From contig NC_080418.1 in assembly GCF_029873635.1 (NCBI RefSeq), positions 8,399,562-8,463,561 of the forward strand: 64,000 nt of DNA, given 5' to 3'. Positions 37,076-63,977 of the stretch are shown here, in pieces; position 1 is the stretch's first letter; each line of letters opens with the position of its first letter. The translations under genes and the position numbers were made by a program. The notes below the pieces were generated by a model that had not been told where the DNA came from, searched no databases, and was given only the letters and a program-made list of their open reading frames with translations. Source of the stretch: Malania oleifera (Eukaryota > Streptophyta > Magnoliopsida > Santalales > Ximeniaceae).

Positions 37076-37113
37076 ATGGCTGATTCTGGAAACTGGTGGA
37101 ATAGTCGATTAAT
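37076..37113 (+). CDS. LEUNIG-like gene, exon 1
   Basis: It encodes [12 protein letters not shown] plus two bases of the next Met codon, with donor GTAAGT at 37114. A near repeat of this exon sequence, TGGTGGAGTAGTCGATTAGT at 37191-37210, lies in intron 1, suggesting a small local duplication. Confidence 0.85.
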
Positions 37114-38159
37114 GTAAGTTCGTCGATTGTTTTTCTTCTTTTGAAGAATTTTTTGGCAGTTGATCGGAAAGAACTACAAGTTGATATTGACTGGTGGAGT
37201 AGTCGATTAGTGCGAGTTACTCGATCTTTGTTTTTCGTCTTTGAAAGATTTTTTTCGCTGTTGAAAAGCACTATGAGCTCAGCAACAGAGTTTATCCCTT
37301 CATTTCTTTCGGTGTTTTTCCCTGTTTTGCTTTTGCTGCTGCTGCTGCGAACTAATTTTTGTTGTTGTTACATATGCTGGTATAGGTTTGAACGCTATCT
37401 TTATGATTACTTGAAGAAACGGAACTTGCATCAAGTTGCGGAGATCTTCAGGAGAGAGACGGACATCCAGATTGACCCTACGGCTCGGCCATGTAATTTA
37501 GTTTAAAAAAAATAAAAATAAATTATGTCATTCCTTTTGTTGTTTGCTTTATTCGATGAATATTAATTGCATTTCTGTACGCGTTCTCTACTTCTGAATC
37601 TGGAACGTCTGGCACTTTCTTGATGTTGGTTGCTTCTATTTTGCTTTCTTTCTATGGCACATTGAGCATGAAGCTTTTTAATGTTTTAATCCATTACTTC
37701 TTCCCGATCTTTGCTATTGATGATGAAACTTTGAAAATTGTTTTTGATCACTAATCCAAAAAATACTACTGTACTAGTAGGCGTTTTAAAAATGTCGTTA
37801 AGAGGTTGCTTGCCCCCAGGGTGTTGCTGTTTAAAATTTTATTCTTTTAATTTGGGTTTCTTTCTTGCGTAGCAATCTATGAAAACTTGGGGTGCGTTTG
37901 GAATTGAGCTGCGTCATTCTTTCCATTTTTATAAAATTTTTTCCTTCAGCCAAAACTGAAAAGAGAAACATGTCGTTTTTATTTTAATTTTTAATTTTTT
38001 GCATTTTTTTTTTTGTTTTTAAAACAGAGAGCTTGGCTGTTTTAGAGAACTCTTTGTTTAAAAAACATCCTAAGCCCCTTCTCTGCGTTTTTGAAATTTT
38101 CCTTCCTTTTTTAAAAAGGAAACTGAACTTATTTTAACATTTTGTTTTGCCAAGAAGAA

Positions 38160-38191
<32 letters not shown>

Positions 38192-41100
38192 AGAAGAATA
38201 AGACAATGAAATAAAAACAGAAAACGTTATACAGAAAAGTTTTCTTAAAGCTAACATTTAATATAACTTAATATAACAGAAAATGTTATTGTTGGTCTGC
38301 AACTTAATATAACTCAAGGTTTTAGGAGTAACAGAGCTATATTTAGTTATTTACTCGGACTTCCTGGGGTTTAGTCTTCTTGTCCGTGTAGCTTGATATA
38401 TATTGTTGGCCACAACCTAACAGGTATACTTACCTTGATTTGTATATGTTGGTTATATTGGTCCTCAGTTTCTTGGATCATGTATAAGAGGAATGTTTTA
38501 TTATTTTCTTGGATCATGTATAAGAGGAATGTTTTATTGAATCTGACTCTTTAATCCACATGATTTTTATACTTTGTGCTGATTTTGCTTCATGGATCAT
38601 CATTACTTGGTTACTGGTTCCCCCTCTTCAGCTATAGATGTTCCTGATGGTTTTCTGCATGAATGGTGGTCCACATTCTATGACATGTTCAATGCAATGC
38701 AATCAAACAATCATGAGAATAATCAGGCTCTTGACAGAATGGTGGTGATTTTTTTTCTTTTTCTTTTTAAATTTTGTTAGTTTCTTCGAACACAACTTTT
38801 TTCCCTTCCTGTTTTCAGTCATACTAATCCTTATTCTTTCTTGGTTCCTATAATTAGGCTGAAAACCTTATGGAAATTGGGCAACAAAGCAATGCTTCAC
38901 TGCAAAATTATGAATCAAATGATCAAATGATTATGCATCCAACTGTTAGAGCTGATTCTGGTAAAGTGTCTATCATGCCTCATAAATTATGCAAGATCTT
39001 CTTCAGATGGACAGGCATAGACTGTTAGCTCCAATCTTTGGCTTGCTAAATATTCACTTACTTTGCGGGGTCATTTTTTCCCTCCAAAAACATTTATGAA
39101 ATTTCTCTAAGCTTTTTTGGGGATATTTTAAGATGGTTGAGCAAGCAGCTAATGCCTAATTATTCTAAAATAATTATGTAAATTTTTCTTCACCTCTGGT
39201 GGTCCCTCACATGGGCTTGGACAGCTAAACTTCTAAATCCTGATCAGAGTTAGAAATTCTGTTTGGCTAGTGATTGGTTTTTTCATCACTCTGCATACGC
39301 AAATAGTTCCTATTTTGTGCCTAGTAATTATGATTTATGAGAAGTGAAAAAACAAAGCAAATTGGACTAGTAGTGTTAAGGTTGTGTACGTGATGAACTA
39401 GAAATAGTCAATAACCCAGAGAAAGGGTAAAAGAAATTGTGTGTGAGTTGGTTTTGGTCCCTGCTTTGTTTGCTGTATTAAGTGAGCTCTCTCATTAGTT
39501 TTCACATAAAAACGTGTAATAGATGTTAAACTGTATTGATATTTACATAATTATGGAAATCATACATCAACATGGCTTTTATTATTTACTATTGTGGCTG
39601 CAGATACTGTCTATGCAACAAAATTTTTATTTAGTTCTTTTTAGTATCAATTACTAATTTTGTCTTCCTATCATGGGGGAGTTACTAGAGAGGGAAATTT
39701 AACTTAAGCGTTAAGTCTCTTGAGGTGGTTTGTTGTGTTTTCTATTTTTACCTTTTTTGGGCCTGTTGATATTAAGCCAATATTCAAATGCACAAGCATG
39801 ATGGGTTTTTGTGCAAGTGACCTCCTAAACATTATTGAGATACAGTACATGAGATTAACCTTGTAAGGATTAAAAGGTTAAGTATGACTAAGCGTATTGA
39901 TGCTGGAATTGTTGTTGAACACTGGGAACAGATGACACAGAATATTGTAAAAGAACTTACAATTTGTTGTAGGTGTGCATATGTACTGTCCTAAAGGATA
40001 GATTCTGCCTCTCGAAAATGAGTCTCAGTGCAGAAGGTTAACAATGACCACACTTCTAGGATATAACTATTGTTGTCATAAGGGTGCACATGCTACGCAA
40101 GGATAGCAGGAACCACTTGCATAATCTGACAACTCACAAATGAATGAACGAGTATCAAATAGCAGTGGAAAACACAGTGGGGGCTAGGTTAATAGACTCT
40201 GTCACAGGACAATCTCTATAAAATTTATAAAGGGGAAATAAAAGATTAAGAGCAAGACAAAAACTTATTTGATTGCAGAGATCTGAAAAGGATGGTTAAG
40301 CAATCAATATGATTAAGAGCATTATACAGAGAATATCTCTAATTAGTTTGTAAATGATTTGGAAAAATAAAAGTATAAGTGGGCTGAAAATGGTCCACCT
40401 GCAAGCCGTGAAATTGGGATTTGCAACCCCTTGCGCATGATGTCACATGCATCATCCCTGGCCTACCTGTTTTAAGACCTGGCTCATCAAAATGAATGAG
40501 CCGTGCTTTGCCTTGTGTAAGTGTGGGGGACTCTTGGTGCTTGTTTATTCACAAGGCCCAAGTAGTGCTCCCACGTATAAGGAGGTTCAAGAAGGCAGTT
40601 CAAGCAATGAGGGACAAGGGAAAAAAAAGATAACTGCCACAAGGAAGGAAAAAGGCGCAAAAGACATAATGAACCAGAGGACACTAAGGGATGTATAGAT
40701 TTTAAAATGCAGTAAGGTCACTTGATCTAAAACTACCCTCGCTTATTTCAAAAAATTTAGATGAAAAAGGGAGGACTATTGTGGATTTTATGTTGGAATG
40801 TAATGCTTCATCTAGTGCCTTTTGGGCTACGAACCAGACCTGGATATGTAAGTCTTAACTTGAAGAAATTTGGGGAAATATAAAGATTTCTATGAGCTGT
40901 AGTTTCCTTATGTTATTTAGTGATCTCATCATCTAAATCACACTTGCAAAAATAATGTTGTTCTCAAGATTATGAAAGTAGGCATGTTCCCTGCCTTAAG
41001 GTTTACGAGTGTTCTAGATCTTCCCTATGATCTTGTAGGGGTGGCCTCGCTCTACACTCCTGTAGGTGAACCCATCAAGTGTAATTGCTGACTAGGTACA

Positions 41101-44100
41101 TCACCTGTTGGATACTCTAATAAAACAATAACTTTGCCTTTATCTTAATTGTCCAGCATTGATTTCGCCAGAAACTTGAAGTCCCTTCATCGTCTGAAGC
41201 TGAGCTCTTGAGCGAACACACTTGCACGTGCACAAGACATGGTGAAAGAGGGGAGAAGCCTACTCCCCTCTATGCATAGCCTCCTAGTTTTTTCCTTTCC
41301 CATGATATACCCCAATAACATAACAATGCGCACTAGGTCATCATTAACTTGTTCTTACCCTTATGGACCTACTTCATGGTATCTCAAATCACATAGATTG
41401 GGTTTATGTGTTGACAATTTAGAGACGGAGGAGAGAAGAAGAAAAGAAGAGAAGAAGAGAAGAAAAGAAGAAGAGAAGTAAAGAAGAAGAAAGTGAGAGA
41501 AAGGAGGAGGCAGCAATATTTGTTGAAATCTCGAGTATCCTTGGGTATATTGAGTAAATTAGGAAAGTAGTAAATATAGAAGATTGTATATTATTCTGTA
41601 GGAAGATTGTTTACTTATTTAGAATCTTTGATCGTATTATATATTATAAGATTGGGATGTACAAATTATTCTATTGAAGAAATACAGAAATTGAATTCTA
41701 TCTTCATAGTATCAGAGCTAGGGTTTCTAAACCTTAGCTAACTATGGCCAGCGGCACCGTCAACAGCAGAGGATCGATTTCCTCTGAAAATCTCGATAGA
41801 GACTCGGAAGCCACATCCATTGGGGGTTCGAATGGGCTAGAAAGCTCAGCCTTTCCACTCGTAGTGGAGAAATTAAACGGAAAAAATTTTCGGGAGTGGG
41901 CTCAATCCATCAAATTGGTGATTGAAGGAAAAGGGAGGTTAAGATACCTTATCGGCGAAAGGAAGAAACCAACCTCTACTGATGTTGTAGCCTTGCAGAA
42001 ATGGAGGTCCGAAAACTCCATGGTTACTGCTTGGCTCGTAAACTCAATGACGCTGTCAATTGGGAAGATCTACTTGTTCTTGCCAACGGCGAAGGACGTC
42101 GTATTCCGACGTCGAGAGTTACTCTCAGATCTTTGAGATAAATACCCGACTGTGGTAGATGAGGCAAGGCGAGAGGGACGTTACCGAGTACTTCATGGAG
42201 ATGGCCCATCTCTGGCAGGAGCTCGATCTGAGCATCAAGGAGGAGTGGGAATGCTCTTGCGACAGCACACGCTATAAGAGACGACTTGAGAACGAACGGG
42301 TCTTCGAGTTCTTGACCAACCTCAACCGTGATCTAGACGACGTGCGGGGAAGAATCCTTGGCCAATGACCCCTGCCATCGACCCAGGAGGTGTTCGTAGA
42401 AGTGAGGCATGAGGAGAGTAGAAGACACGTGATGCTGAGACCACCGATGGGCCATATTGGGCTTGAAGTCTCGGCCCTAATTTCAAAAGGCCCTACGGGA
42501 TTTGGGCAAAAATCACAAAAGGGAAAATTATGGTGCGAGCACTGTCATAAGCCAAGTCATTCAAAAGATACCTACTAGGAGATTCATGGAAAGCTTGCAG
42601 ATTGGAAGCCGAGGCAATATCAAAAAAATCGTGGCTATCAGGCTACTACCGATAATTCAACTGAGAAGTCCTAAGGCAAGAAAAATAACAATATGACTCC
42701 AAGTGGTGTATTTAGTCCAGAGCTGTTGGACCAGCTATATAAAATGTTTTCCCGATCAATTCAAACATCGGGTCAATCTTCCACTGGTTCTTTAGCCCAC
42801 CGAGGTAATTTTTTATCAGCTTTAAATTCTATATCCCACTACAAACCACCATCGATAATTGACTCGCGTGCCTCTGATCATATGACTAATTCTTATCAAT
42901 TGTTCTTATCCTATTCACCATATACTAGAAATCTGAAAGTTTAAATTGCAGATGGATCTCTCTCACCGGTTGCAGGCAAAGGAAGTATTTGCATATCTCA
43001 TTCTATAACTTTAAAATCTGGCCTGCATGTCCCTAAGTTATCTTGCAATTTGTTATCCATTAGCCAGTTGACAAAAGATTCCAATTGCTCTGCTAAATTT
43101 GTTTCATCTCACTGTGTTTTCTAGGACCTATCACTAGGGAAGACGATTGGCAGTGCTAAGGCGTTTGAGGGACTCTACTACTTTGAAGAGGCAAATACGA
43201 GTGAACAATGTAATATTGCAATTTGTGATTTTGCTTCTATTTCTAGAGATAGTGAACTTTTGATATGGAATTCTAGGATGGGTCATCCAAATTTTCAATA
43301 TTTAAGACGTTTATTTCCTTCCATTTGTTCAAATAAAACGTCTTCTGATTTTCAATGTGAAGTTTGTGAGCTTGCAAAACACCAGCATAATTCTTTCCCA
43401 AAATCCACATACAAACCATCCCGCCCATTTACTATGATTCACAGTGATTTATGGGGGCCCTCATGCTCCCCTAATCGCATTCATACTAAATGGTATGTTA
43501 CTTTTATTGATGATCATACTCGTATTTGTTGGGTTTACTTGTTGAAAGATAAAACTGAAGTCCGTTCTTTTTTTGTCAGTTTTTACTCCATGATTCAAAC
43601 ACAATTCCAAATTCGCATTCAAATTTTATGTACTGATAATGGTACAAAATATTTTAATGATATCCTGAGACGTTATCTTCAAGAAAATGGAATTGTTCAT
43701 CAGAGTTCTTGTGTGGATACCCCTCAACAAAATGGGGTTGCTGAACGAAAAAACAGACATATATTTGAAGTAGTTCGGGCATTGATGTTCACTACAAATA
43801 TGAAAAACTATTTTTGGGGAGATGCTATCTTAACAGCTACACATCTCATTAATCGAATGCTGAGTTGAGTTCTTTCTTTTGCCACTCCTCTCTAGAAATT
43901 TTAGGAACATTTTTTTACCTCTCGACTCCACTCCAATCTCTCTCTGAAAATCTTTGGATGTACTGCATTTGTTCATGTTCATGCTCACAGTCGGGATAAA
44001 TTGGAATCTCGTTCCATTAAATACGTCTTTATTGGTTACTCTCCTATCCAGAAAGGCTACAAATGTTATGAACCTGTCTAAAAAAAAATGTTTGTTAGCC

Positions 44101-47100
44101 TTGATGTCACGTTCTTTGAAACCACTCTTTATTTCCCAAAGCCTTCTTTTCAGGGGGAGAAGTAGAGTGAATATCGGTTCTTTTATTTCTCTACTACTGA
44201 ATTTGTGCCATCTAATGAGTCTCCTATTGAAACATTCCCTGACCCATCTACTGAGTCTCCCATTGCTGAGCCTCCCATTGCATCATGTCTTGACCTGTCA
44301 TATACAAATGATCACTTAAACTCAAGGGGAGATGTAGAAAAACAAAAGGAAATACTTGTTTACTCAAGAAAGCAAAAAACAAAGAATAGGGAGAATCTCA
44401 TACCTGAGGCACCAAAAGAGTTGGAACCGGTGATAGTTCCGAGCAACCACGAGTCCACGCCCAGTCTCGATCAGGTAATCAATGACCATGAGCTTTCTTC
44501 TGATAAGTCTGCACCTGATGACATCAATTTACTCATTGCAGTCAGAAAACAAACTAGGTCATGTACTCTATATCCCTGGTCGAAATACATGTCTTTTAAA
44601 TCTCTGTCTACAGGGTATTGTGTTTTTACCTCTAACCTTGATAGGATGAAAATTCCAAAGAATATCCAGGAAGCCTTGGAGATTCCTGAATGGAGGGAAG
44701 TTGTCATGGAGGAAATGTGGGCCCTGAAAAAAAATGGAACTTGGGACGTTATGAATTTTCCGAGAGGAAAGAAACTAGTAAGCTGCAAATGGGTCTTCAC
44801 AATGAAATATAAAGCTGATGGGACAATTGAACGGTATAAAGCCCGACTTGTTGAAAAAGGGTTTACACAGACCTATGGTATTGACTACACGGAGACATTT
44901 GCACCAGTGGCAAAATTGAATACATTCGGGTCCTCCTGTCCTTGGAAGCCAACTTAGATTGGCCACTACAACAACTTGACATTAAGAATGCATTTCTAAA
45001 TGGCGAGTTAGAAGAAGAAGTCTACATGACGATACCACCAGGTTTCAGTAAGAATGGTGAAGAAAATAGAGTATGCAAACTCAAGAAGTCATTGTATGGA
45101 CTCAAACAATCTCACAGAGCATGGTTCGATAGATTTGCAAAAGTGATTAAAAATCAGGGATAATGACAAGGACAATCAGATTACACTATGTTCTTCCAAC
45201 AGTCTGAAAGTGGTAAGAAAACAATTCTGATAGTATATGCTAATGATATAATCCTAACTGGAGATGATACAGTGGAGATGAAGGATTAAAGAAAGTCCTA
45301 GCTACTAAGTTTGAAGTTAAAGACCTGGGACAAATGCAGTACTTCTTGGGAATGGAAACTGTTAGATCAAAAAAGGGTATCAGTGTCTCTCAGCGAAAGT
45401 ATATTCTTGATCTCCTAACACAAATTGGCATGCTTGGTTGCAAACCTAGTGAAACTCTGATTGAAGCGATAAAGAGGGTTGAAGAATGTAGGATACCAGT
45501 TGAAAAAGAAAGGTATCAGAGATTGGTTGGTAAACTAATTTACCTATCGCATACCAGGCCCGACATTGCATTTGCAGTAAGTGTGGTAAACCAACACATG
45601 CATTCACCGAAAAAGACTTACCTAGATGCTGTGTATAAGACCCTTAGGTACCTCAAGGGTTCTCCAGGCAAAGGACTTTTCTTCAAAAAATGTGAAAGCA
45701 AGGGAGTAGAAATCTTCACAGATGCGGATTGGGCAGGATCAACGGAAGACAGAAGGTCTACCACTGGATATAGCACCTTTGTATGGGGAAATTTGGTAAC
45801 TTGGAGGAGCAAAAAACAGAATATAGTGGCTCGAAGCAGCGCTGAAGCTGAATTCAGAGCAGTTGCACAAGGAATATGTGAAGGACTGTGGTTACGGAAA
45901 CTCTTAGAAGAGTTACAAATTTATGTGAAATTCCCTATCAAACTCTAATGTGACAACAAAGCAACCATTAGTATCTCTCTCAATCCAGTTCAACATGACA
46001 GGACTAAACATGTGGAAGTAGATCAACATTTTATCAAAGAGAAGGTTGAAGAAGGAACCATTTGTATGACTTATGTACCTACCAAGGAACAAACTGCAAA
46101 CATCTTTGCTAAAGGGTTAACACGACAGAACTTTGATGATTTCATTGGCAAGTTGGATATGATTAATATTTATGATCCAACTTGAGGGGGAGTGTTGAAA
46201 TCCCGAGTATCCTTGGGTATATTGAGTAAATTAGGAATGTAGTAAATGCAGAAGATTATATATTATTCTGTAGGAAGATTGTTTACTTATTTAGAATCTT
46301 TGATTGTATTATATATTGTAAGATTGGGATGTACAAAATATTCTGTTGAAGAAATACAGAAATTGAATTTTGTCTTCAGTATCCTAGAGAGTTATGTAAA
46401 ACTCTAGGTTTGTCCTCTTATGGACCTACTTCATGGTATCTTAAATCACATAGATTGGGTCACCATCACTATTAACCTTGATTATATGTTGAAAAGTTAG
46501 AGATGGAGGAAAGAAGAAGAAGAAAAGAAGAAGAAAGTAAGAGAAAGGAGGAGGCAGCAGTATCCTAGAGATTGACGTACAACTCTAGATCTTCCCTCTT
46601 ATATATTAATAATAATAAAATCCATAAGGACAAAAATACCCCCACTCACACAACCTAATTGCTGCAACAACCTGCTCTCTTTCTAACATTCTCCCTCAAG
46701 CTAGAGGTGTATAAATGTCACCCTCCCCCAACTTGTCACAACCATTAGACAGGCAGGATTAAATAAAGGTTTTGTGAAAACATCCTCTTACTGATCCTTG
46801 GATTTCACAAAAGGATTCCTCACAACCTTCTTCAGTGCAGCATTCCTCACAAATGACAATCAAAATTCAAAGTGCTTTGCCTCTTATGGAATACTGGATT
46901 GCTAGTGATATAAATGGCAGCTTGATTATCACAAAGCATATCCATCCGCTTTGTTACTAAAAAACCCCATCTCTGATATAAGAGATTTTAGCCACATAAG
47001 CTCACTCACAATATGAGCCACTGCTCGGTATTCTGCTGCAGCACTAGATTTGGCTATAATAATTTGTTTCTTGCTATGCTAGGTAACAAGATCACCTCTC

Positions 47101-50100
47101 TCAAATGTACAATATCTATTAGTTGACCTTCAATCATTAATAGAGCCAGCCTAATCTGCATCAGAGTATCCGATGGTCCAACTAGTTTTATTACATTTAT
47201 ATATCAAACCTTTGCCTAGAGAGCCTTCGAGATACCGTAAAATCCTATAAAGAGTATCTCAATGTGGTTGTTTGGGTTTTCCACTAACTGACTCACCACC
47301 TCTACTGCAAAAGATATGTCATCTCTAGTGACAATCAAGTAGATCAACTTGCTAACCAACTGTTTATATCAACGCTTGTCTTAGAATTCCAGTCCAACAT
47401 CCATAGATAGCTTGATGTTAAGATCCATAGGGATATTAGTTGGTTTAGCTCCTAACAAACCAGTCTCACTTAGAAAGTCCAGTGCATATTTTTGCTGAGA
47501 CAGACTCAACCATTTCCTACATCATACAATCTCAATACCAAGAAAGTAACGTAGAGCACCTAAGTCCTTGATTTTAAATTTAGCTTGAAGCCAACTTAAC
47601 ATCTGCAATCCCACTATGGTCACTGCTAGTGATGATGATATCATCAATATAAACTACTAAAAGTACCACATGTACCTCTGCGTTGGTCTCACAAGGCTTA
47701 GAATCTTGTTTTGATGATAACAATGCAAAGGAACTTAACATATTTGGTTAAGTGAAGTTGCAAGACTCAAGAGTGTTGATAAAAGACCAAGGTCAAGTGC
47801 TTGAAAAGTCCATTGAAAGCTTGTACTTAAAGCTAGAAGAACTTGATGAAGTATGTACTTAAGTCAATAAGTTATGAAGGAAGTCAAAACAAATACATGA
47901 AGATATTGAAAGCAAAGCAAATACATGAAGATACTGAGAGCAAAGCAATTACATGAAGATTTAGCGCTTAGAAAGTTATAGTCTTTTAAGAAGTCTCATG
48001 TAAGTACTTCAAATGATTTCAATATGGATGCATGAAGCTCTTAGGTTAATTATTTGGACCTAGATACCTTTTAAATTACTTGGAAAATATTTTTATAAGG
48101 TCAAAAGTTATTTCAAAAAGGTTAAAATTATTTTTGGAATGAAAAGCACCAAAACAGGATTCTCCAAATTCCCTTCTTTTTTTTACATCTGCATGGATGA
48201 GCACGTTTCTCTATCAAACATTCCTTATCTTAAAAAGTGTTCAACATGAAAGTTGTGGGATTTTTTCTTAGCTTTCTGTTGATACCAAGAATGGCCAATT
48301 TGGAGTTGTATAGAAAAAGTTATGACCAAAATACTGAAGGGTGGTCGAAACTGATAGGCACCTCACAGATCCTTCTCAAGCGACTGACTGAACATACTCA
48401 GGCTCCTGACACAGCACTGACTTTTGAAATACGCTCATGATCTTAAATTTCCACGAAATTGTGGAAATTTCCGTCGAAATTTCCTATTTTTGTCACCTTT
48501 GAAATCGAAATGGCAGTCGATTTTTGTCTTGCATATTTTCCGTCAAAATCTCAACGAATCATCCGAAATTTATCGAAACCTCAAAATTTTAGCGAAATTT
48601 GTCGAAATTTTAACTATACAATGAAATTTCGTTGAAATTCAAACGAGAGATTCAAGAGTGAAGTGAAATTTCTTTTTTAATTTATTTTATTTAAACAAAA
48701 GGTTAACACAAGTGCTTTTGAAATTATATGAAAAAATAAACTTATAGTAATATTTTATTTAACCATTCATGTCTAAATTATCAATATTTGTATAATAAAT
48801 AATATTTAAATGAATTATTAATTTCATTTGCATTAACTGAATCTATTTAATGTACATTATCTTACAAACATGTTTGATACACATACTATTTTACAACTTT
48901 TCCACCCTATACAAAACATAGATGTATTTAATTTGTAATATATTAGTCTTAAAACTTATATTATTATATTTGTTAACCATTTCTAAAGTTTCACAAAGAA
49001 TTCCATGTTTTACTACTAGTTTTCGTTATTTTTTCAAATTGAAATCGAAATTGACATCGAAATCGAAATTTTCGTTCTTTTGGAGCTTCAAAATTTGAGT
49101 CAAAATCGAAATTTAAGACCTTGAATACACTGGATTTTTAAGTGATAGGCGCTGGACACTTTTTGATAGGCGACTGATCTTCGTAAAATTCAAATTTTAA
49201 CAGTTACGAAACTTTCCAAAAGTGATTTCTTGCCCACCAAAGTTTGTGAAAACTTGGGGAATACTCCAAGCAACTTGGGCAACACGAAAAATACTTTTTA
49301 AACCCTATAAATACATGCTAATCTCAAGGGATTACATACACCAACAAAGATAAAAAATCAGCTATTGATCAAATTCTTTCACATTCAAAGAGTTCTGGTT
49401 GAATATTTTATGAGAAGCTATTTTCTGAGTATTTGCTGAATTAAAGCTTGAGGTTCTTGTGCTCTAACTGAGATTTCTTCAAATCTAAAGAACCTCGGTG
49501 ATAAATTCTTGAGCTTCATATTTCTATATTGAATTTTCATTGAAGTATATTGTGCTATTCAATTGTACTAATTTGCTCTTATTGAGAGTTGTTCTTGTAC
49601 ACAAGGCTCTTTTTTGTGTTATTGTTTTGACAGTTTAGGTTGTTGAATTGTTGTACCAAGCGTGGGGTATCGCTTGGAGAGGAGGGCTCCATCCTACTTG
49701 AAGGAGTGTGTAAAAGGTTTGCTCTGCCCGGTTAAGGGAGTGGTATAGTGAAATCGTTGGGGTGGTTTACCTCAGGTGAGGTCGTAGGCGGGTATAGCCG
49801 AACCTCGTAAAATCTCTTGTTTTTCTCTTCCCTAATCTCTTTAATTTTCTGCATATATATAAATTGCGTGTATGTTTACTTAATTGTTGAAAATTAATCT
49901 GTTATTGGGAATTGAGGAAACTTTGGTTTAAGGGAATTCGTTGATTGATCTTTTGCGGAAACCTCAAAGGGAGTACGTTGATTAATCTTTTGCAGAAACC
50001 TTGATTAAAGGAAGTGTGTTGATTGATAAGTATCAAAACTCATTAACTTACTGATTTGTTTCATACTTAAATTCAAAGTCTGAATTTTGGAAGCTTGCTG

Positions 50101-50638
50101 AAATCTTTATTTTATTTTATTTTTTGGATTACGCATTGGGTATCCACGTGTCCGTTTTACGGTCCACGTGACTAATCCTGCGCCCCTTGAAGTTGACCCC
50201 ACAACTCCAAAGGGAGGGTAAATTCAGGAGTCCAGGGGTGGAAACGAATCCGGGAGGGTTTGAAATCTTTATTTTGATTCATATTGTGAAATCAGCATAC
50301 TATAACTTTATTGATTGGTTGATTAAGTTTTTTGATTCATATTTTAGATCAGCTGTGTCTTCACCTCAAAGGTTTGAACTTGAAATTGAATATTGGATAT
50401 TGATTTCAATCAAGGAGTTGATTGGATTAAAATTTCTAAATTTTTGAATATTTAATCTTGTTTAATAAATCATTCTATTGAAACAAGATTAAAAGAAAAT
50501 TCAAGATTACTTATCGATATTGTCTTTGAAGTATACTGAAAAGAAAATCTTATCTAAATTTTTATCTGTTAAAATTTTGAAAGTTGAATTAGCAATATCA
50601 TCTCTTGTTGATAAGAATTGATTGGAGAGTGTGATTGC

Positions 50639-50679
<41 letters not shown>

Positions 50680-53600: not shown

Positions 53601-56600
53601 CCATTTGTACCACTGTCTCGGAGACTGCTTCAGCCTATAAAGTGACTTCTTCAGTTTACAAACCAAGTGCTCCTGTTCAGGTTGACAAAACCCTTCTAGC
53701 TGTGTCATGTAAATCAACTCCTCTAAATCATCATGGAGGAACGTTGTCTTTACGCCCATCTGCTCCAGATGCATGTCATATTGCACCACCAGTCCCAACA
53801 CTAGCTTGATGAAAGTGTGTTTGACCACAGGAGAGAAGATTTCATCATAATCAACTTCCTTTCTTTGTGAGTATCCCTTCGCTACCAATCGAGCCTTGAA
53901 CTTCTTTATTTCTTTTTCTAAAAAACTGCTTCTTTCTTCCCGTAAACCCACTTGCATCCTAGCGTCCTCTTCCCAGCTGGAAGCTCCACCAAATCTCACA
54001 TCTGGTTCTTATGCAGTGATTCCATCTCCTCCACCATAGCGCCCATCCAACTATTTTTCTCCTGGCTGTGCATCGCCTCTTGAAATGTAGTAGGATCTCT
54101 GCTGCTAGTGATAAGTGCATATGACACCAGATCATCAAATATGTACCTGTGGATGGCCTGACAATGCATCTGGGTCTGTCTACAGCTATATAGAGATGCT
54201 GCTGGTCTCTCAAGTTAGAGCTCCCCGCACTCTAATCTTTGCCCTGAGTCTCCAACTCCACCTGCACCGCCTAGAACTTCCTGCATTTCTGCCCCAAGTC
54301 TCTAACTCCACTTGTGCAACATGCTTATTGCTACTGCAGTTTTTTGACACCTGTTTCTCTTCTTCTTCCCGAGTACGCAGTGACATGGCTTTCTCATCGA
54401 AAATCACGTCTCAACTGATCAGCACCTTGTTTGCCACTAGATCCCACAACTTGAACTCTTTCACACCTTTCTAATATTTTAGAAAGATGTACCGTCTAGA
54501 CTTTGCTTCGAGCTTTAAACTCTCATCACCAGGAATGTGCACATAGGCTGGACAATCAAATACTCTCAAAGCGAAGTAGTCTACCTTGTTACCTGTCCAC
54601 ACCTCCTCAGCAATTTTCCCATCTTGTGATGCCCTTGGTTATCTTTTAACCAAGAAACAAGTCATACTCACCGCCTCGACCCATAAATTCTTAGCGAGCC
54701 CAGCATTCAACCTGAGACACCGAGCCCTTTCAACTAGGGCTTGGTTCATCCTTTCTGTCACACCATTTTGTTATGGTGTCCGGAGTACTGTAAAATGTCT
54801 CCTTATGCCATACTGCTCGCAAAAATCTTTGAAGCTCGAATTTGTGTACTTAGTTCCATTGTCTATCGTGAGGCACTTTATCTTTCTCCCGGTCTAGTTT
54901 TCCACCTCAGCTTTCCACAATTTAGACTTGGAAAACATCTCTGACTTGTGCCGCACGAAGTACACCTGGACCTTCCATGAGTAATCATCAATGAAACTCA
55001 CGTAGTACATATGTCCACCTCGTGATGCTACCCTCACCGGTCCCCAAACATCTAAATGAACGTAATCGATGATTCCCTCTGTCTTGTGCATGGCTGCCAT
55101 GAACTGGACCCTATTTTGTTTCCCACTTGCATGATTTGAACCCCTTCAACAGACTTCTCTTGTAAAGTTCCTTCATTCCACACTCACTCATATGCCCTAA
55201 CCGCATATGCCACAAGGTTGTATCATCCGACTCAGACTCTGCAGCTGCACCTCCACCTACTACTGTAGTACCCAGCAGTGTGTATTTATTCCCCGGTACT
55301 CTCAGCCCCTTCATCACAATTAGAACACCCTTACTCACATTCATTTCCCCACTTTCAGACTTGTAACTGAACCCGTTATAGTCTAAAGTGCCTAATGAAA
55401 TCAAATTCTTTCTCAATTCTGGTATGTGTCTTACCTCACATAACGTCCTCACCACACCATCTTACATCTTGATTCAGATATTTCCCATTCCGAAAACTTT
55501 GCATTCAACATCGTTTCCCATAAGAACAGAACCAGAATTCACCAATCTGTAAGTGGTGAACCGGTCTTTGTTCGGCATCATATGACAAGAGCACGCTGAT
55601 TCTAAGATCCAAGAATTTGTGAGACTGTCTTAATCGGATGAAACTGATAGCATATCACTATCACTGCTCCCAAAGTCTCTTTCTTCCGCTACGTTTGTTG
55701 TGTTTGATGAACATTCTATTTTTAGCATTCCCCTTCTTCCTCACTGGGCAATCAAGTTTTATGTGCTTCTTTTTCCTGCACTTAAAACACCGCTCATCCT
55801 TCCTCTTCCTGGAATTGGATCGAGCCCTATTGTTACTCGGTCCACCCTAGAACTTGCCCCTTCCACAATCCTGGTTCCCCTTCACCATGAGTCCTTCACC
55901 TTGTGAACTCTCATCGCTAGCCTTCTTCCTCTAATGGAAACTTTGCAATGCACTTGTGATATCTTCCAACTTCAGGGTTTCTTTCCCCCATATTAGAGTC
56001 GTAACCATATTCTCATACGTAAGAGACATAGGTAGGGAATTCAGCAGCATCAATGCTTTGTCTTCATCCTCGAACTTCACATCAACCCGCTTCATATCAC
56101 TAATGATCTGATTGAATGCGTTGATATGTTGATTCAAATCCGAACCCTTTGCCATCTTAAGCCTATAAAGTTTTTGCTGAATATATAAATTGTTTTTCAA
56201 TGACTTGGACATATACCGACTCTCCAGTTTCATCTAAACTGCTGCTGGAAATTCCTCATCGATGACATGATACATCATGTCATCAGTTAGAAAAAGCCTG
56301 ATAGTAGCCACAGTCTTCGCTTCCAACTCCTTCCAACTCGTGTCATCCATGTCTTCTGGCTTCCTTCCGTGTAATGCCTTCACCATACCTTGCTGCACCA
56401 ACATGTCCTTAACCCTCATCTACCAAAGTCCTAAATTCCCCATTCCATAGAAATTACCAATATCGAACTTTGCAGAAGAAATTCCAGAAGCCATTATAAC
56501 CTCAGGATCTGATACCAATTTGTTGTGTAGAGTGGTAGTATACCAATGCGTAGCGAAAAAACACAAATTGAATCCAGAACAAGCAATGCAGCAACTAACG

Positions 56601-59600
56601 ATGAATATACGGAAATAATCAATCATAAAGAGAATAAAATAAAGCAATAAGAACACACGACACAAGAAATTACGTGGTTCGGCAATGTGTCTACATCCAC
56701 GGGAGCAAACGGCTGATTTTCACTATCAATCGTCAAAGCTTATACCAAGGGATACAAAATATTGTTTATATTCTAACCCTATGCGTACAGAAGACTTAAA
56801 ATGCGTCTAAAACACTTTTGTAGCAAATCCCAAAAGAAAATCCTCCAAATCTCCCAATCTACTGGTCTTCCGATTAAAAATCTATGATTTGCGCCAAACG
56901 AAACCATCGATAGTTTCAGCAAACTGTCGATGGTTTAATACTGAGAACCGTTCCCCTGCAGATTGAAACCGTCAACGATTTTATCTCCCAAGACCAAAAC
57001 CGTCAATCATACCATCGACTAAACAGTCGATGGTTTCTTCCTACAGCCTAGCTTCCTTGTTCTTTACTTCACCATGCTTTCCCGGCGCATGCGTTCTACT
57101 CAATATGAGCCACATATCCAAATCGTCAACAGTTATCTCCTGAGACCAAACTGTCGCTCCTACCGTCAACCAAATAGTCGACGGTTTCTTCCTACAACCC
57201 AGCTTCCTTGTTCTTTGCTTCACCATGCTTTCCCAGTGCATGCGTTCCACTCAATATTAACCACATATCCAATGATCTCCACCTTGGCGAATATTCACCG
57301 CTTAGGAGAAATATGAAAGCATATCCCACTGCTCCACCTGGGACAATATATTAAGACCGCCTCCTTTCTAGCACCTAGAAACATTAATTAGGTCCAAGCA
57401 ATACTTGAACTTGTCCGTTGTGATAGACTTTGTCAACATATCAGCTGCATTCTCAAAAGTGTGAACCTTCTCAAGTAGAAGTTCACCTGAAGCAATTGGT
57501 TCCCTGATCCTATGAAACCGCACATCAATGTGCTTTGTCCTCGCATGATACACCTGGTTCTTCGCCAAATAGATGACACTCTGACTATCACACTGCAGCC
57601 GAACTCCACCTTACCGGACACTCAATTCCTTGACCAATCTTGTAAGCCACAACGTTTCCTTGGCAACCTCAGCCATTTTCTTGTACTCTGATTCAGTAAT
57701 AGATGAAGCAACGAGTGACTGCACCATAGACCTCCAAAAAATAGGTTCTCCCACAATGGTGAATACGTACCCTATGGTAGACCTCCTGTCATCCAAGTCT
57801 CCTGCGTAGTCAGCATCCACATACCCTACCACCGCTGGATCACTCTGTTGTCTGCTGAACATAATGCCATATCCAGTTGTACCCCTCAAGTATCTAAGAA
57901 TCCACTTGACTACATCCCAATGATGTCAACCCGGATTCGAAAAGAACTTGCTTACCTCGCTGACAACTTGTGTCAGGTCTGGCCTTGTACGTACCATGAC
58001 ATACATCAGACACCCCACTACACTAGCATAGGGGACCTTCGACGTGTCATGAACCTCATCGTCCGTCTTTGGGCACTGGGCGGTAGACAACCCAAAATGA
58101 CTCGCTAACGGTGTACTCACCGGTTTAACATTAGTAATGCTAAACCTCTCCAACACCTTCTCCACATAGCTGCCCTAAGATAACCACAATCTCCCTGCAG
58201 TTCTGTCACTGCGAATCTCTATTTCAAGTATCGTATTGGCCACACCCAAGTCTTTCATGTTGAACTCTTTACTCAACGGAGCGTTCAACTAATTCACCTC
58301 AGTCATATCCTTCGCAGCAATCAGCATGTCATCGATATAAAGCAACAGAAATATGATAGAACTATCCTCAAGACTCCTCACATAGACGCAGCAATTGTAC
58401 TCACACCTCCTGTAGCCAATATGGATCATATAGGCGTCAAAACTGTTTGTACCACTGCCTTAGAGACTGCTTCAGCTCGTAAAGTGACTTCTTCAGTTTA
58501 CAAACCAAGTGCTCCTGTCCAAGTTGGCAAAACCCTTCTGACCGTGTCAAATAAATTAGCTCCTCTAAATCACCATAGAGGAACACTGTCTTTACGTCCA
58601 TCTACTCCAGATGCATGTTGTATTGTGCCACCAATCTCAACACTACCCTAATGGAAGTGTGCTTGATACCTTTGAAAAATTTCAATAATTTGATCAATGC
58701 ATTTTGAGCGATCCTGATTAGGACTTTGTGTATAAATGCTAAGTCTACACACAACATATGCAATGTTAGGGATGAGTATAGTTTATCAGGTGCACTATGA
58801 ATAACTTGAGCACATTTTGATTCCATCATTACCTCTATTTTTCTTTAGTTGAGTACTATCATCATAAGGTGTGGACATAAGTTTATAATAAAAAATGTCC
58901 AAATTCTTTAGAATTCTCTCCTAAGAAAACATTAAGCCATTATCAAGATATTTATGCCAATCAGATCGGCCTCTCTCTAATTCTACTTGTGAAATAAGAT
59001 GGATGAGAATCTTTTGGTGTTTTGCACAATCGCTATAGTTGTTTAAAAAATAAGGATGCTATCTGCACATAAACTGATTATGCCCTAATTACTATCTTCT
59101 ATTTTGGTATTACACATTTTTCGAACCCCATAATTGAGAAACCAATTAGGTAGTAACACGACCAAGTTTTTTATGCCATTGTATTACAGCATGCTTCAAC
59201 CAATATAGTGATTTTACAAGTTTGCAAGCCACCCACCCTTAAGTTGTAGCATATATATTTCTTCTTCAAGGTTCCTATATAAAAGGCTATCTTTACATCC
59301 ATTTGGTATGAAAGTGGGGTGAATTGGGTTTATAAAAATTCTTTTAAGTGTTTTTTAGAATTTTCAACCTTTTGTAAACTTAAGCAAACACACAAGAATG
59401 ACTTAATTTTAAATCAACCACAATCCAAACACAAGCCAAATACCAATCACAAACCAAACAATAATCAATCAACCAATCACAACACTTAACCAAATTGTGA
59501 AAGCTTGCAACACTTTCTTATTTCAATGTTTGCCAAATTTTAGTTTGTAGCCCTGTATGAATGATTTTTTAAGCGCTTCTTTAAATCAAGATTTCCGCAA

Positions 59601-62600
59601 GCGATTAATTAACGTACTCCCTTTAAGGTTTCCGCAAACGATTAACCAACGTACTTTCTTAAATTAAAAGGTCTTCTCAATCTCAGTTTTCAGAAATCCT
59701 GCACTTTGAAACACAATTTGTATATGCTGAAATTTAAATAGAAAAGGGTAGAGAGAGTAAAACCGAGATTTTTTACGAGGTTCGGCTTATCCGTAGTCTA
59801 TGTCCTCGCCTTAGGCAAGACTACCTAAGGATTCCACTAACACGTTCCTTTGCGGGCAGAACAAACCGTTTACAATCCTCCTTCAAGGTGGAACCCCCTC
59901 TCCAAGCGATTCCCTATGCTCGGTTACAACGATCTAATCACTTGAACTGTCAAAGAAACAAGAAACAAGAAACGATTTCTTTTGTACAAAGAAAGCTCTC
60001 AGATAGAGCTGGTTAGTACAATTGAAAGCACTATATACTTCAATAACAAATATCAAAAGAAATAGAATTGAAGCTCAAAAACAAATTCTCTGGATTTCTT
60101 CTTTAGACAAGGATCAGCAATTCAGATGTTAGAGCTCAGAGAAGATTGATTGAAGACTCAGAGAAACTCAGCGATTCTCAGTTTGAAAGAGTGAGCAAGA
60201 GAGCTTTGAGAGAGCAAGAGAGCTTTTAGCTTAAGAGCAGATTTTCAATGCTTGGTTTGAGTTTGATTAGAGAAAACATGTATTTATAGGCTCAAAAAGG
60301 TTAATTCGTGTAGCCCAAGTTTACTTGGAGTGTTTCCCAAGTTTTTACAAAATTTGGGGCACAAGAAACTTAAATTTGAATTTTAAAAATTTTAAAAAAA
60401 ATAGTCGTTAACAATGTTCAGGCGCCTGAAGTCCCAGGGTCAGTCGCCTGAGGTTCCTTAAAACTGTGAATTTTCAACTGAAAATAGGGTCAGGCGCCTG
60501 AGGTGACCAGGGTCAGTTGCCGGAGCCTACACTGCCTCTTTAGAAATTTTTCTAGGAAAATCTTCAGGCGCTTGAGCTTATTCTTTAGTCGCTTGAGGAA
60601 AATCTTCAAGAGCCTGAGCTTATTCTTCAGTCGCCTGAACAGATAAAAATTTTGATTTTCAGGTTATTTTTCAAAACCACTTAGCCCTCTTGCTTTGTCA
60701 CTCTAAAAGAACATTTTACGGGGTTTTTAAAACAAGGTTTGTAAGTCCATGACAACCCCTAATGAGCTTCAAACCATTTCCACATGATATTTAGTAAGAA
60801 ATACTTACATAGGTTATCCTAAAGCCTTAATCACTCTAAGCTTGTAGTCTTCATATGAGTCTTTGCTTTGAATCCTCTTAGACTTTGAGTTTGAGTCAAC
60901 TTTAGGTTTCCACATGCTTTTATCATTTTGGGTCCATTTGAGCTTCCTTTGGATCACTTTGAAGATGAGTGTGGCTTTGTAGTACTTTTTGATCTTTTGA
61001 ACTTTGTCTTTCAAGCTTTCTTGAAATGTTATCACTTAACAAAAACATGATAAATCAACCTTTATTTGTTATCATGGAAACAAGATTCGAAAGTCATGTT
61101 AGGCCAACATTGTAGATTACAACTTTATGTATGGAGGGTTTGGAGGTTAAGGCAATTAAAACCTTAATTGGAGACAGTTTTTCTATGAGAGCACAAACGT
61201 TGAAGTAATCCACATTCTTGTTTTGGGTATATCCCCTCTCTACTAATCTGGCCTTAAATTTATCAATGGACCCACCGGTTTGAATTTCTTTTTGAATATC
61301 ATTTACACACTATGTGCTTAGCTCAGGACAGTAGATCCACTTTTTCATGTTTGCTATTTAAGGCATCTTTGCAGAAGAAAACACCAGGTGATGATACAAC
61401 TTCTTTGTAAGTTAATAGGTCATTATCTACAAGGAAGGCAATTGATTATTAATAGGTCCCCAATAAAAATGCCTTAAAGAAAACAAACGAAAATATAATT
61501 AAAATAGAAAATCTTCTTCATTCTAGCTACATCAATCACCCTCATTTATAAAAATTCCAACCTTGAATTTTGAAAATCTGAAGGATGAAGTACTGATATT
61601 GTGATCAAGCTTGAAGGAGACCTAGAAAAGGTGCCGACTTAAAACAAAAAGGATTGATGGAGAAGAGCTCATGAAGGTGTAGATGGGAAAGTTCACTTGG
61701 AATGAAGAATTCAACCAATTGAGGTTTGCAAAGAATGTGGACATGTTGTGAAGCCTGGCCTTGCATTGTGGAGCAAATAAAGGGGAAAAAACTATAAAAA
61801 GTAAGTCAATTGGGACTTCAATTTTAAAATGGATGAACCTTGCTTATATTTTTTGAGATGGGAATCAGAGAAAAACCTCTTAAGTAGCCCAAATAAGTGA
61901 GATGCCATGACTCATGAGGGATAGTGAATTCAAATATCATGCATTGACAAATGGTAAGAGGATTACATGTTTTTTCCAAGTTTGAGTGCTAAAAGAGAGA
62001 GGAAGTTTGAAGAGCCAATCACAATAAAATAGAGAAGTTTGAATTCCATAATTAAACTGGGTATATGTGCTTTTATATCCAAAAGGACAGAGCAGGATTT
62101 GGTGATTGGTTCTAGCTCTAGCATCAAGTTGTTGGTTGACTGATAATGTATTGAAAGGAATCATTTTTAGTCTAACTTGCCCTTTAGAGGAGGAGGCTGT
62201 CTTATTCCATTAGAAATCCATCATTTACTAGAAAAAAAAATGGTTATAGAACCTAGTCTCCATCTATTCAATATATTTTGATTGGAAACATAAATTGGTC
62301 CAATAATTTTTTAGCATTGAAATGACTAACATCCTATCTACTAGCATCGGGGTAGTCTCCATGGGGGCTTGATGGGTGAGTCCCATTTTGACCCAAAAGC
62401 TTAAACCTATCGGATCTTGGTCCCAACCATGTATATAAGTACCTATAATCCACTTTGTTTTTCCAACGTGGGACAAACTCATAAGTAGAATTCTCAACAG
62501 CCATCCCCTTCACTTGTGAGTTCCAACCACTCCTTGAATGGAAGCTATTCTTGAGCGTTTAGTGTGATGCAACCAATTAGGAGTCATGAATCAACTATGG

Positions 62601-63977
62601 GAAAGGGCACAAAACCATGGGAGTCCACTCATCACCCCTCCTCTTCCACATGTCTACATTTGGAGAATTTCCCCCTTAAGCTAAAATCATCTCCTTAATA
62701 GGAGTAAGCCCAATTCTCCAATAGTTGCTCAAATGGGCCTTACCCCCACTCCTTAAGTGTCTCAGATTGTATTTCACGTGCCTCCAAACCAATCCTATTT
62801 CTCATGTCGTCTGACCCTATTTGGATCCATCTGGCTTAGATGATCCTTATTGGCTTGGTCAAACTTGGTCCTCCAACTGTTAGCATATCAGGAGAATTAG
62901 CTTCAAACCTCAACTTTACGATGTCACTCACCTAGAGTTATAAACCATTGGCTCTGATACCACTTATTAGTACCTAGAGAGTGTTCATGAGGGCTTGATA
63001 CACATAGATGAGCACGAACTTGACCCAAAAGCTTAAGCTTATTTGATTTTGGACTCAACCATGTATATAAGTACCCATAATCTACTTAGTTTTCCAATGC
63101 TGGACAAACAAGCAGAATTTTCAATATTATCATTAGACCTTTCTTTCATTGGAAAAAAGAATTGCCCATTTTGTGCCTCTCAGGGAGGATACAAACCCTT
63201 TTCTATCATCATTCGCTGCACTAGGGAGCATTTTTCCGCCTTCTCTTCATTCATTAGAATCCTGATACTTCTTTTCCCAAGTCATCTAGTCTCACCTTCC
63301 ATTTGATACATTCATGCACTTTCAGAATGTTGAGCTTTATGTCTATAGTTTGTTGCAACATGATGCCATAAGGGCAACAAAATTGCATATTTTTTCGTTT
63401 GGAATCAATTAGAGACGCAATAACTTTGCTCAAAATAGCATCTAATATTTAAATAGATAGCTTTGTCTACGAATAGATGAAAAAAAAATGCTTATGGAAT
63501 TGATGCCCCAAAACAAATCATTCCTTTGTATTATTATGATTGTATAGTAAATTTTTTTTCCCATATGCTTTTTTTATTCACTGATTTACAGTGTATTTGA
63601 GAATTTGAAATCCCATTTTCATATCTACAGGATTGACTGCAATGGGCGACAATCCACTGCCATCTGTGGGGTGGCCTTTGACAGTAAGAAGCTTTATTAG
63701 ATTCAGTCCATTTACTTTCATTTTGAGTTGTAAATGTTAATCTGATGTTTTTTTTAATCTTGTCAAGGGAGATGTGCAAATGGCACAACATTTTTCATTT
63801 TCTCAACATCAAGAAGATTTAGCAAAACTCACCTTGGAGACATCATATCAACAAGGGTTGCCAGCACTCACATCAGAGACATTGTATCCTGCTGGCAACC
63901 TTTTCAATTTAAGTGCACAAGAAATAGAAAGTGATGTTCGCACAGCCCTGAGAATAGATAATGTTGTGCCTAAAGAG
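37076..63977 (+). CDS. LEUNIG-like transcriptional corepressor, N-terminal part (gene continues past the window)
   Basis: Six exons join in one frame: 37076-37113, 37386-37492, 38632-38741, 38858-38960, 63631-63683, 63768-63977 (207 codons so far). All five internal introns, and the donor at 63978, have GT and AG. The protein starts [14 protein letters not shown] LisH dimerisation motif follows at residues 14-45 ([18 protein letters not shown]), then the LUFS signature [20 protein letters not shown] at residues 49-68, a short linker, and a [11 protein letters not shown] stretch that matches the GWPLTG of LUG/LUH proteins. In this family LUFS binds SEUSS-type adaptors and a C-terminal WD40 propeller follows. 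The propeller must lie to the right. The glutamine-rich stretches typical of LUG are absent from the part seen, and the start differs from the usual NWEADKMLD form, so this is probably a divergent paralogue. The start codon was chosen because it lies in a purine-rich CAGCCATGG context and splices in frame. Intron 4 is about 24.7 kb and full of retrotransposons. Confidence 0.88.
37386..37492 (+). CDS. LEUNIG-like gene, exon 2 (LisH)
   Basis: The acceptor is TATAG at 37381-37385. It encodes [20 protein letters not shown] and on to PTARP, the LisH motif. The donor is GTAATT at 37493. Confidence 0.9.
38152..38197 (+). repeat. (AAG)n microsatellite in intron 2
   Basis: About 15 AAG units with one interruption (GAGG near 38181). 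Confidence 0.95.
38632..38741 (+). CDS. LEUNIG-like gene, exon 3 (LUFS)
   Basis: The acceptor is CTTCAG ending at 38631. It encodes [20 protein letters not shown] and on to NNQALDRM, the second half of the LUFS domain. The donor is GTGGTG at 38742. Upstream in intron 2, at 38470-38540, a 35-bp unit TTCTTGGATCATGTATAAGA... is present twice in tandem. Confidence 0.9.
38858..38960 (+). CDS. LEUNIG-like gene, exon 4
   Basis: The acceptor is AATTAG ending at 38857. It encodes [20 protein letters not shown] and on to VRADS plus one base of a Gly codon, with donor GTAAAG at 38961. Phase 1 at the end matches the start of exon 5 at 63631. Confidence 0.82.
38961..41105. other. Left part of intron 4, no feature recognised
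   Basis: There is no recognisable coding block or transposon end. Open frames such as 40447-40698 have no domain, and the GA-rich stretch at about 41430-41490 that follows belongs to an LTR. Part of 39900-41100 may be an old element I cannot classify. Confidence 0.5.
41106..46688 (-). repeat. 3' LTR of copia fossil 4, split by a nested copia
   Basis: Its two pieces (41106-41520 and 46379-46688) add up to about 725 bp. It contains a tandem duplication of about 150 bp: the block from TTATGGACCTACTTCATGGT to GAGGAGGCAGCA occurs at about 41371-41514 and again at about 46418-46560, and the nested copia sits between the two. Confidence 0.78.
41521..46378 (+). mobile_element. Full-length Ty1/copia fossil 5 (Ale-like), plus strand
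   Basis: Two direct 186-bp LTRs (41521-41706 and 46193-46378) differ at 11 sites by eye, about 6 percent. A tRNA-Met-type primer-binding site lies at 41708-41719 (AGTATCAGAGCT) and a polypurine stretch TTGAGGGGGAG before the 3' LTR. Parts in order: gag (from 41744), zinc knuckle (about 42530), protease (about 42845), GAG-pre-integrase and integrase (43260-43868), connector (43950-44630), reverse transcriptase (about 44640-45310) and RNase H (about 45540-46160). Flanks ATATT and GTATC match only in part. The short LTRs and GGGGGAGTGTTGAAA junction suggest the Ale lineage. It is broken with several breaks. It lies in the same orientation as the host gene. Confidence 0.92.
48436..49120. mobile_element. 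Non-autonomous TIR DNA element (MITE-like) rich in GAAATTTC words
   Basis: The left end reads GATCTTAAATTTC and the right end GAAATTTAAGACC, so 13-bp inverted termini with one mismatch. Flanking imperfect direct repeats are TTGAAATACGCT (48424-48435) and TTGAATACACT (49121-49131), which suggests an 8-11 bp target duplication (hAT or Mutator type). Both subterminal regions are packed with CGAAATTTC/GTCGAAATTT words in both orientations, with an AT-rich centre. No transposase is encoded. Confidence 0.65.
50114..50260 (-). mobile_element. 5'-truncated tRNA-derived SINE, second copy
   Basis: This is the same body as 22483-22675 (CCTTGAAGTTGACCCCACAA, CTCCAAAGGGAG, GGAGTCCAGGGG) in the same minus orientation, but cut near the B box. 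The 3' tail is a TAAAA-type run (plus strand ATTTTATTTT). It is bounded by TGAAATCTTTATTTT at 50099-50113 and 50261-50275. Confidence 0.85.
50640..50674. repeat. (AT)n microsatellite
   Basis: An uninterrupted AT dinucleotide run of about 17 units near the end of the SIRE-like LTR. Confidence 0.9.
52349..57274 (-). mobile_element. Ty1/copia fossil 6 (Tork-like), minus, near full length
   Basis: On the minus strand: 5' LTR 57274-56521, primer-binding site about 56519-56508, gag (about 56495-55931), CCHC knuckle (about 55795-55750), protease/GAG-pre-integrase (about 55620-55111), integrase (about 55100-54600), connector, reverse transcriptase (about 54120-53150; [22 protein letters not shown]), RNase H (about 53060-52540), and only the end of a 3' LTR (52446-52349). 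It is the same family as fossil 2 and the unit to its right. It is broken with many breaks. Confidence 0.88.
56521..57274 (-). repeat. LTR shared by two copia units, with an internal tandem duplication
   Basis: It starts TGTTGTGTAG beside a primer-binding site on its left side and is followed directly on its right by the 3' internal end of another unit (CTCCACCTTGGCGAATATTC). A segment of about 152 bp (CGTCAACGATT... to CACATATCCAA) is present twice in tandem, at about 56970-57121 and 57122-57272. GTCGATGGTTT motifs recur through it. Confidence 0.8.
57275..58663 (-). mobile_element. Ty1/copia fossil 7, RNase H and reverse transcriptase part only
   Basis: This is the same family as 52349-57274 and lines up with 52447-53820 along its length. 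Minus-strand parts: reverse transcriptase (from 58663 down; [11 protein letters not shown], then YVDDMLIA region near 58330) and RNase H (57889-57368; [14 protein letters not shown]). It ends abruptly at 58663 against another remnant. It has no LTR of its own on the right. It is broken. Confidence 0.85.
59309..61109 (-). mobile_element. SIRE/Maximus-like copia solo LTR, minus orientation
   Basis: The minus strand begins TGTTGGCCTAACATGAC, then ATCTTGTTTCCATGATAACA, and ends CCAATTCACCCCACTTTCA. The flanks TGGTA (59304-59308) and TTGTA (61110-61114) differ at one site. It is 1801 bp long. A motif array of CAGGCGCCTGA type lies at 60418-60640. It interrupts the reverse transcriptase of remnant 8. 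Confidence 0.85.
60415..60645 (-). repeat. Array of CAGGCGCCTGA-like palindromic motifs
   Basis: About eight copies of TCAGGCGCCTGA or its decayed forms (AGTCGCCTGAG, CAGGCGCTTGAG, CAGTCGCCTGAA) occur in about 220 bases of the LTR, in the part that corresponds to U3. Confidence 0.75.
61401..62333. other. Unresolved part of intron 4
   Basis: No coding domain was recognised. A 75-codon minus frame at 61937-62164 might be decayed copia but shows no diagnostic motif. It could be old element or original intron. Confidence 0.45.
62339..63126 (-). mobile_element. TRIM element with two terminal repeats
   Basis: Two direct repeats of about 160 bp (62339-62499 and 62968-63126) share GACCCAAAAGCTTAA, AACCATGTATATAAGTACC and TAATC-ACTT-GTTTTCCAA. 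Between them lie about 470 non-coding bases. A tRNA-Met primer-binding site (TGGTATCAGAGCCA on the minus strand, 62962-62949) lies next to the right-hand repeat, which sets the orientation. The flanks CTATC (62334-62338) and TTATC (63127-63131) differ at one site. It has no coding capacity, as usual for TRIMs. A partial copy is at 9371-9700. Confidence 0.85.
62949..62962 (-). other. Primer-binding site of the TRIM
   Basis: The minus strand reads TGGTATCAGAGCCA, complementary to plant initiator tRNA-Met, five bases from the terminal repeat. Confidence 0.88.
63132..63630. other. Right end of intron 4, no other feature
   Basis: T-rich, intron-like sequence leading to a TCTACAG acceptor. A frame at 63043-63306 shows no domain. 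Confidence 0.6.
63631..63683 (+). CDS. LEUNIG-like gene, exon 5
   Basis: The acceptor is TCTACAG ending at 63630. The two leading bases complete a Gly codon, then [22 protein letters not shown] is the anchor to LUG/LUH family proteins. The donor is GTAAGA at 63684. Confidence 0.8.
63768..63977 (+). CDS. LEUNIG-like gene, exon 6
   Basis: The acceptor is GTCAAG ending at 63767. It encodes 70 codons starting [20 protein letters not shown] and ending IDNVVPKE, with donor GTATTC at 63978. The content is polar and of linker type, with no WD40 repeat yet. Confidence 0.78.

Follow-up and report, generated by a model that had tools for sequence, protein, structure and literature searches.

A divergent LEUNIG-like gene of Malania oleifera with a repeat-filled fourth intron and an apparently missing WD40 half

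The DNA analyzed here (the window) is a 64,000-nucleotide stretch of the Malania oleifera genome, C2:8399562-8463561 in a 1.494-Gb assembly of 510 contigs, and its forward strand holds a gene related to LEUNIG and LEUNIG_HOMOLOG (LUH). The gene runs past the end of the window; positions above 64000, marked ext., belong to the next 59.4 kb of C2, and the overlap of this sequence with the window is identical. Our gene model has nine exons and eight GT-AG introns, carries a single open frame of 1,131 nucleotides (nt) coding for 376 amino acids (aa), and covers 28.6 kb between its start codon and its stop codon, with the TGA stop 1.7 kb beyond the window after three further exons (7-9). Judging from its exons, we think it reasonably probable that the gene is a divergent LEUNIG/LEUNIG_HOMOLOG paralogue that has the N-terminal LUFS domain and the GWPLT exon, a rewritten linker and no WD40 half, and that could act as a competitor for adaptor proteins.

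The first-pass annotation of this DNA had placed a 24.7-kb intron that keeps splice phase between exons 4 and 5, and its junction was exact. The last base of exon 4, in phase 1, is 38960, and a GT comes directly after it at 38961; the acceptor AG takes up the intron's final two positions, up to 63630, after which exon 5 begins with the GA that completes a Gly codon. As had also been proposed, the junction is followed by GWPLT, which we take to be a word of the LEUNIG/LUH family. In the paralogues on contigs C3 and C6 the GWPLT exon is likewise preceded by an AG, with phase 1 at its start and phase 0 at its end. Because these homologous exons share place and phases with exon 5, the 38960/63631 junction is not a product of chance. 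The exon is 53 nt long here versus 50 nt in C3 and C6, and the G of GWPLTG in the C3 gene comes from its next exon. Since two paralogues have it at this position and in this phase, intron 4 is inherited from a common LEUNIG gene plan.

The length of intron 4 is ordinary for the LEUNIG-type genes of this genome, transposon-swollen as it is. Against its 24,670 bp, the C3 gene has 11,683 bp and the C6 gene 8,881 bp for the homologous intron (two of the four paralogues were measured, with C5 and C12 left out), and the C3 gene has a 31,541-bp intron between WD40 exons, which is longer than intron 4. From first LUFS to last WD40 match the paralogous loci span about 73 kb (C3), 52 kb (C12), 29.5 kb (C5) and 26.5 kb (C6). 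Consequently, we rejected the idea that intron 4 is unusual for a family whose five loci all span 26-73 kb, and the earlier picture of an exceptional, massive invasion does not hold; as an intron story the locus is commonplace, since every LEUNIG-type gene detected in the genome is long.

The N-terminal part of the predicted protein has a LisH/LUFS region. The Pfam LisH model matches it at E 3e-4 (21.1 bits, just below the 21.6 cut-off), LUFS chains of SSDP/SSBP2 in the PDB match at E 2e-4 to 2.9e-4, and the region aligns with the LUFS domains of all four paralogues (C3, C5, C6 and C12). Together with the conserved splice phases of the GWPLT exon, this places the gene near LEUNIG/LUH. The linker is of another kind: 24 glutamines are spread over the 290 residues after LUFS, with a longest run of 2, versus 36 in 175 residues and a longest run of 8 in two C3 linker exons, a comparison for which no threshold was fixed beforehand. 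A genome search found no sequence match for the linker in the paralogues. The WD40 exons of the C3 gene are 71-82% identical to Arabidopsis LEUNIG. The C12 gene (C12:59409712-59461566, about 52 kb) is a second divergent LEUNIG-like locus, and it has kept its WD40 exons.

After the GWPLT exon, the exons up to exon 9 differ from those of C3 and have no sequence match. Exon 9 begins with ASR in phase 0 at the place of the C3 ASKNQNGRKRKQ exon, a homology that is positional only, so the LEUNIG plan is kept up to roughly this exon, at which the gene stops. In C3 the ASKNQNGRKRKQ exon is followed by VESFLS and then by WD40 exons, and no counterpart of these was found in the window plus the 59.4 kb downstream, which reaches 57.8 kb past the stop. 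Over this sequence, the lowest E was 2.2 for a LEUNIG WD40 query, 1.6 for three linker queries (two reaching the first WD40 residues) and 0.18, a 7-aa match, for 25 peptide fragments of the WD40 regions of C3, C5, C6 and C12, some of which are intron read-through. WD40 exons in the window or downstream sequence were rejected after these searches, in which 2.5 kb of the sequence was N.

Genome-wide, 121 candidates were scored for the LEUNIG WD40 query, with 52 matches at E<=0.001, and 92 for the C12 WD40 query, with 84 matches at E<=5. For both queries, matches of at least 43% identity are confined to C3, C5 (56.76 Mb), C6 and C12, and since two LUFS exons accompany the WD40 part at every one of these loci, no orphan WD40 half appears among the scored candidates. 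WD40 matches on C2 lie only at 90.3 and 45.1 Mb, far from the locus at 8.4-8.5 Mb; both queries also match other WD40 genes at 20-42% identity, none of them near it. A C-terminal WD40 region was thus looked for and not found, with some residual doubt from the N stretch, and we file the gene as a truncated relative rather than as a LEUNIG-family corepressor. By its exon content it looks like a 3'-truncated, diverged LEUNIG paralogue. The suggestion of a corepressor gene that had survived intron invasion stands in one part, a LEUNIG-related gene that has kept frame and phase across a transposon-rich intron; its corepressor status is doubtful because VESFLS and WD40 exons appear to be lacking.

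The first-pass annotation had also considered that 63631-63977 might come from a second, complete locus. A genome-wide search with a 207-aa model scored 14 candidates and gave five matches at E<=0.001, four at this locus and one to a weak C12 exon; at that threshold a second complete locus was rejected as the source of exon 5, and the idea is unsupported in this assembly.

Eight repeat pieces (Table 1) make up 14,690 of the 24,670 bp of intron 4, or about 60% with approximate edges; four are copia-related and the other four are unclassified repeats, which falls short of the at least six retroelement insertions proposed before. The intron has 36 open reading frames of at least 85 aa, and copia-type domains were found in 9 of the 25 scanned with Pfam; among these, Pol_BBD (42675-42944) scores below its curated cut-off. 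These domains lie on the plus strand at 41.7-45.9 kb and on the minus strand at 53.4-56.2 kb. Self-comparison detected a direct repeat resembling long terminal repeats (LTRs), 193 bp at 93%, in the plus-strand element, and direct repeats of 99 bp at 94% in the minus-strand element (about 52.3-57.1 kb). Two intron segments were searched against the genome, scoring the best 40 of 7,543 and of 14,551 candidates, and each holds a high-copy repeat, with at least 41 and at least 44 matches, query included. Insertions on both strands and an element resembling those with terminal inverted repeats (TIRs) had been noticed before and are borne out; a short interspersed nuclear element (SINE) is not, as the window gave neither an Rfam match at the gathering score nor a tRNA, and no SINE-specific test was run.

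Table 1. Exons of the LEUNIG-like gene and repeat pieces of its fourth intron (RT, reverse transcriptase)
Feature	Position	Strand	Evidence or remark
Exon 1, start codon	37076-37113	+	Gene model, GT donor
Exon 2, LisH/LUFS part 1	37386-37492	+	Gene model; Pfam LisH 21.1 bits (cut-off 21.6); paralogue matches
Exon 3, LUFS part 2 (GFLHEWW)	38632-38741	+	Gene model; PDB SSDP/SSBP2 E 2e-4 to 2.9e-4; paralogue matches
Exon 4, phase 1 at end	38858-38960	+	Gene model
Intron 4, 24,670 bp, phase 1	38961-63630	+	Gene model; self-comparison
Degraded copia-type LTR retrotransposon, edges approximate	41360-46602	+	gag, GAG-pre-integrase, integrase and RT pieces
High-copy TIR-like repeat	48436-49123	.	92-95% to most copies listed; imperfect terminal inverted repeats by eye
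Dispersed repeat	49226-50014	.	Inverted copy at 59576-60368, 69%
Inverted similarity to RT region of plus-strand copia element	50968-51172	-	66% over 205 bp
Degraded copia-type element, edges approximate	52346-57121	-	RT, GAG-pre-integrase, gag; short direct terminal repeats
Partial second copy of the 52346-57121 copia family, 1.49 kb	57180-58666	-	86%, self-comparison
Inverted copy of the 49226-50014 repeat	59576-60368	.	69%, self-comparison
High-copy repeat, about 710 bp	60401-61109	.	80-88% to copies listed
Exon 5 (GWPLT), phase 1 in, phase 0 out	63631-63683	+	Gene model; paralogue exons
Exon 6	63768-63977	+	Gene model; exon end is the end of the first-pass interval
Exon 7	C2:8463628-8463798 = ext. 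64067-64237	+	Gene model
Exon 8	C2:8464746-8464850 = ext. 65185-65289	+	Gene model
Exon 9 with TGA	C2:8465004-8465237 = ext. 65443-65676	+	Gene model

Similar material lies around the gene. Minus-strand copia-type gag, integrase and RT pieces occur upstream at window positions 1512-3137 and 24728-27670, and window positions 3970-6620 are 67% similar to 53858-56526 of intron 4. Intron 2 carries a perfect tandem duplication at 38469-38538 (36-bp unit, 1.9 copies, 100%). Downstream, 8.2 kb past the stop, a minus-strand open frame at C2:8473414-8473626 (ext. 73853-74065) begins with MEAETKIEEETREYFDGVVPKRHTKPQRSEYS; a sequence on C1 is weakly homologous to it (E 1.3e-3, 40% over 57 aa), Pfam gives no match at E<=1, and the frame looks like the first exon of a neighboring gene. 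About 25 kb past the gene, long retroelement-like open frames, the largest of 1,114 aa, lie on the minus strand at ext. 90898-99546.

Several observations weigh against a divergent but working LUFS-only gene. LUFS identity to the paralogues is 28-31 of 63-64 codons, and the LUFS branch is 0.99 long here versus 0.25 for C12 (in a tree of 63 columns in which the gene's row is flagged as unsure and two C12 residues were filled in), a length that fits relaxed constraint too. Exons 7-9 have no relative anywhere in the genome at E<=1, so their use is read from frame, phase and GT-AG sites, and by eye the donors GTGGTG, GTATTC and GTAGTT look weak. The annotated frame scores best of six by codon scores in all nine exons, a result that is partly circular because frames with stops are penalized, and the codon score exceeds a stop-free null at p<0.05, uncorrected for nine tests, in only four of the nine. 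The gene could accordingly be a decaying partial LEUNIG paralogue whose 3' half was deleted or rearranged, an untranslated or unstable remnant with its frame still intact. The WD40 part missing from locus and genome searches would fit such decay, and we keep this explanation open, doubtful as we find it, because of the few exons that beat the null, the long LUFS branch, the exons 7-9 without relatives and the linker that is not glutamine-rich. The GT-AG introns between all nine exons and a frame free of internal stops speak against it, however, as does codon position 3, which differs most in all four paralogue comparisons (e.g., 25/18/32 for the three positions versus C12), a pattern that reflects the whole history of the gene and not its recent branch alone. 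The G+C content of the tail by codon position, 0.49/0.44/0.28, also keeps the order of the training exons (0.49/0.44/0.36).

The remaining adverse points concern what the searches might have missed. The downstream sequence contains 2,500 bases of N at ext. 102501-105000, genome searches score the best candidates only, and one high-scoring WD40 match outside the four loci, C5:84680477-84680842 (34% identity, E 2e-16), is putatively another WD40 gene. A complete LEUNIG gene, with WD40 exons that lie far downstream beyond another giant intron, were overlooked by the searches or fall in an assembly gap, would resemble the C3 paralogue with its 31.5-kb intron inside the WD40 part, and the bases just before the stop, AG/GTGAAC, would also fit a phase-2 splice donor. 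We consider this improbable, given that exon 9 ends in an in-frame stop and that WD40 exons with the divergence of the C12 ones are readily found elsewhere (up to 88 bits) and none appears near C2 8.4-8.5 Mb. In plants the ends of transcripts can be shifted by heterochromatin inside introns, as in the IBM1 gene, and exons 1-4 and 5-9 could in that way be two transcription units, with transcripts ending in the retroelements of intron 4. However, the C3 and C6 genes are joined in phase 1 at the corresponding place, and long introns are the rule in this family here, which makes two units very improbable.

If the gene is a divergent paralogue without its WD40 half, intron 4 would be removed in one piece, which must also happen to the long introns of the paralogues, and the loss of the WD40 half would postdate the split from the C12 gene, which has WD40. 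The protein, if made, may bind adaptors of the SEUSS/SLK type through LUFS; unable to repress alone, it would then compete with full-length proteins. In the available part of PMC4015341, LUH residues 1-88 (LUFS) suffice to bind SLK1 and SLK2, and reporter expression is not reduced when LUFS replaces LUH, so a LUFS-only protein would be expected to occupy adaptors without repressing. A bolder proposal is that a stable LUFS-only relative titrates SEUSS/SLK away from full-length corepressors, a plant counterpart of AES/GRG5 that arose by WD40 loss and whose output is limited by a heterochromatin-prone intron; we hold this to be rather unlikely. Should it be true, a natural LUFS-only LEUNIG relative would offer a ready test for short Groucho-type corepressor antagonists in plants, as in animals.

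No paper on a WD40-less LEUNIG gene was found by title or abstract opening, in a search whose coverage leaves out most subscription journals. Family surveys may drop such genes, since a soybean survey, in the portion available (PMC13275459), removed by hand truncated sequences without essential domains. The intron has documented company. Transposon-driven long introns are described for grapevine (PMC3058033), and LTR elements appear to be the major contributor to long introns in Chloranthus (PMC8626473); as far as the available parts of these sources go, LTR elements lengthen introns there while exon structure stays, with no difference in kind from this locus.

The gene shares with LEUNIG/LEUNIG_HOMOLOG, whose plan is LUFS, a glutamine-rich linker and WD40, the LUFS domain, the place and phase of the GWPLT exon and the place of intron 4. 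Unlike them, it has no detected WD40 or VESFLS exon and a linker unmatched in the paralogues, and unlike the C3 LEUNIG-type gene it has an in-frame stop in the exon that stands at the place of the C3 RKRK exon. Among animal proteins, AES lacks WD40. The nearest functional parallel would be AES/GRG5, short relatives of Groucho/TLE that, in the available part of PMC2997355, are likewise short members of a long corepressor family with the N-terminal part kept. The parallel is by analogy: the N-terminal domains are unrelated, the kingdoms differ, and any function of the gene described here is putative, yet both would represent a corepressor family member reduced to its N-terminal part.

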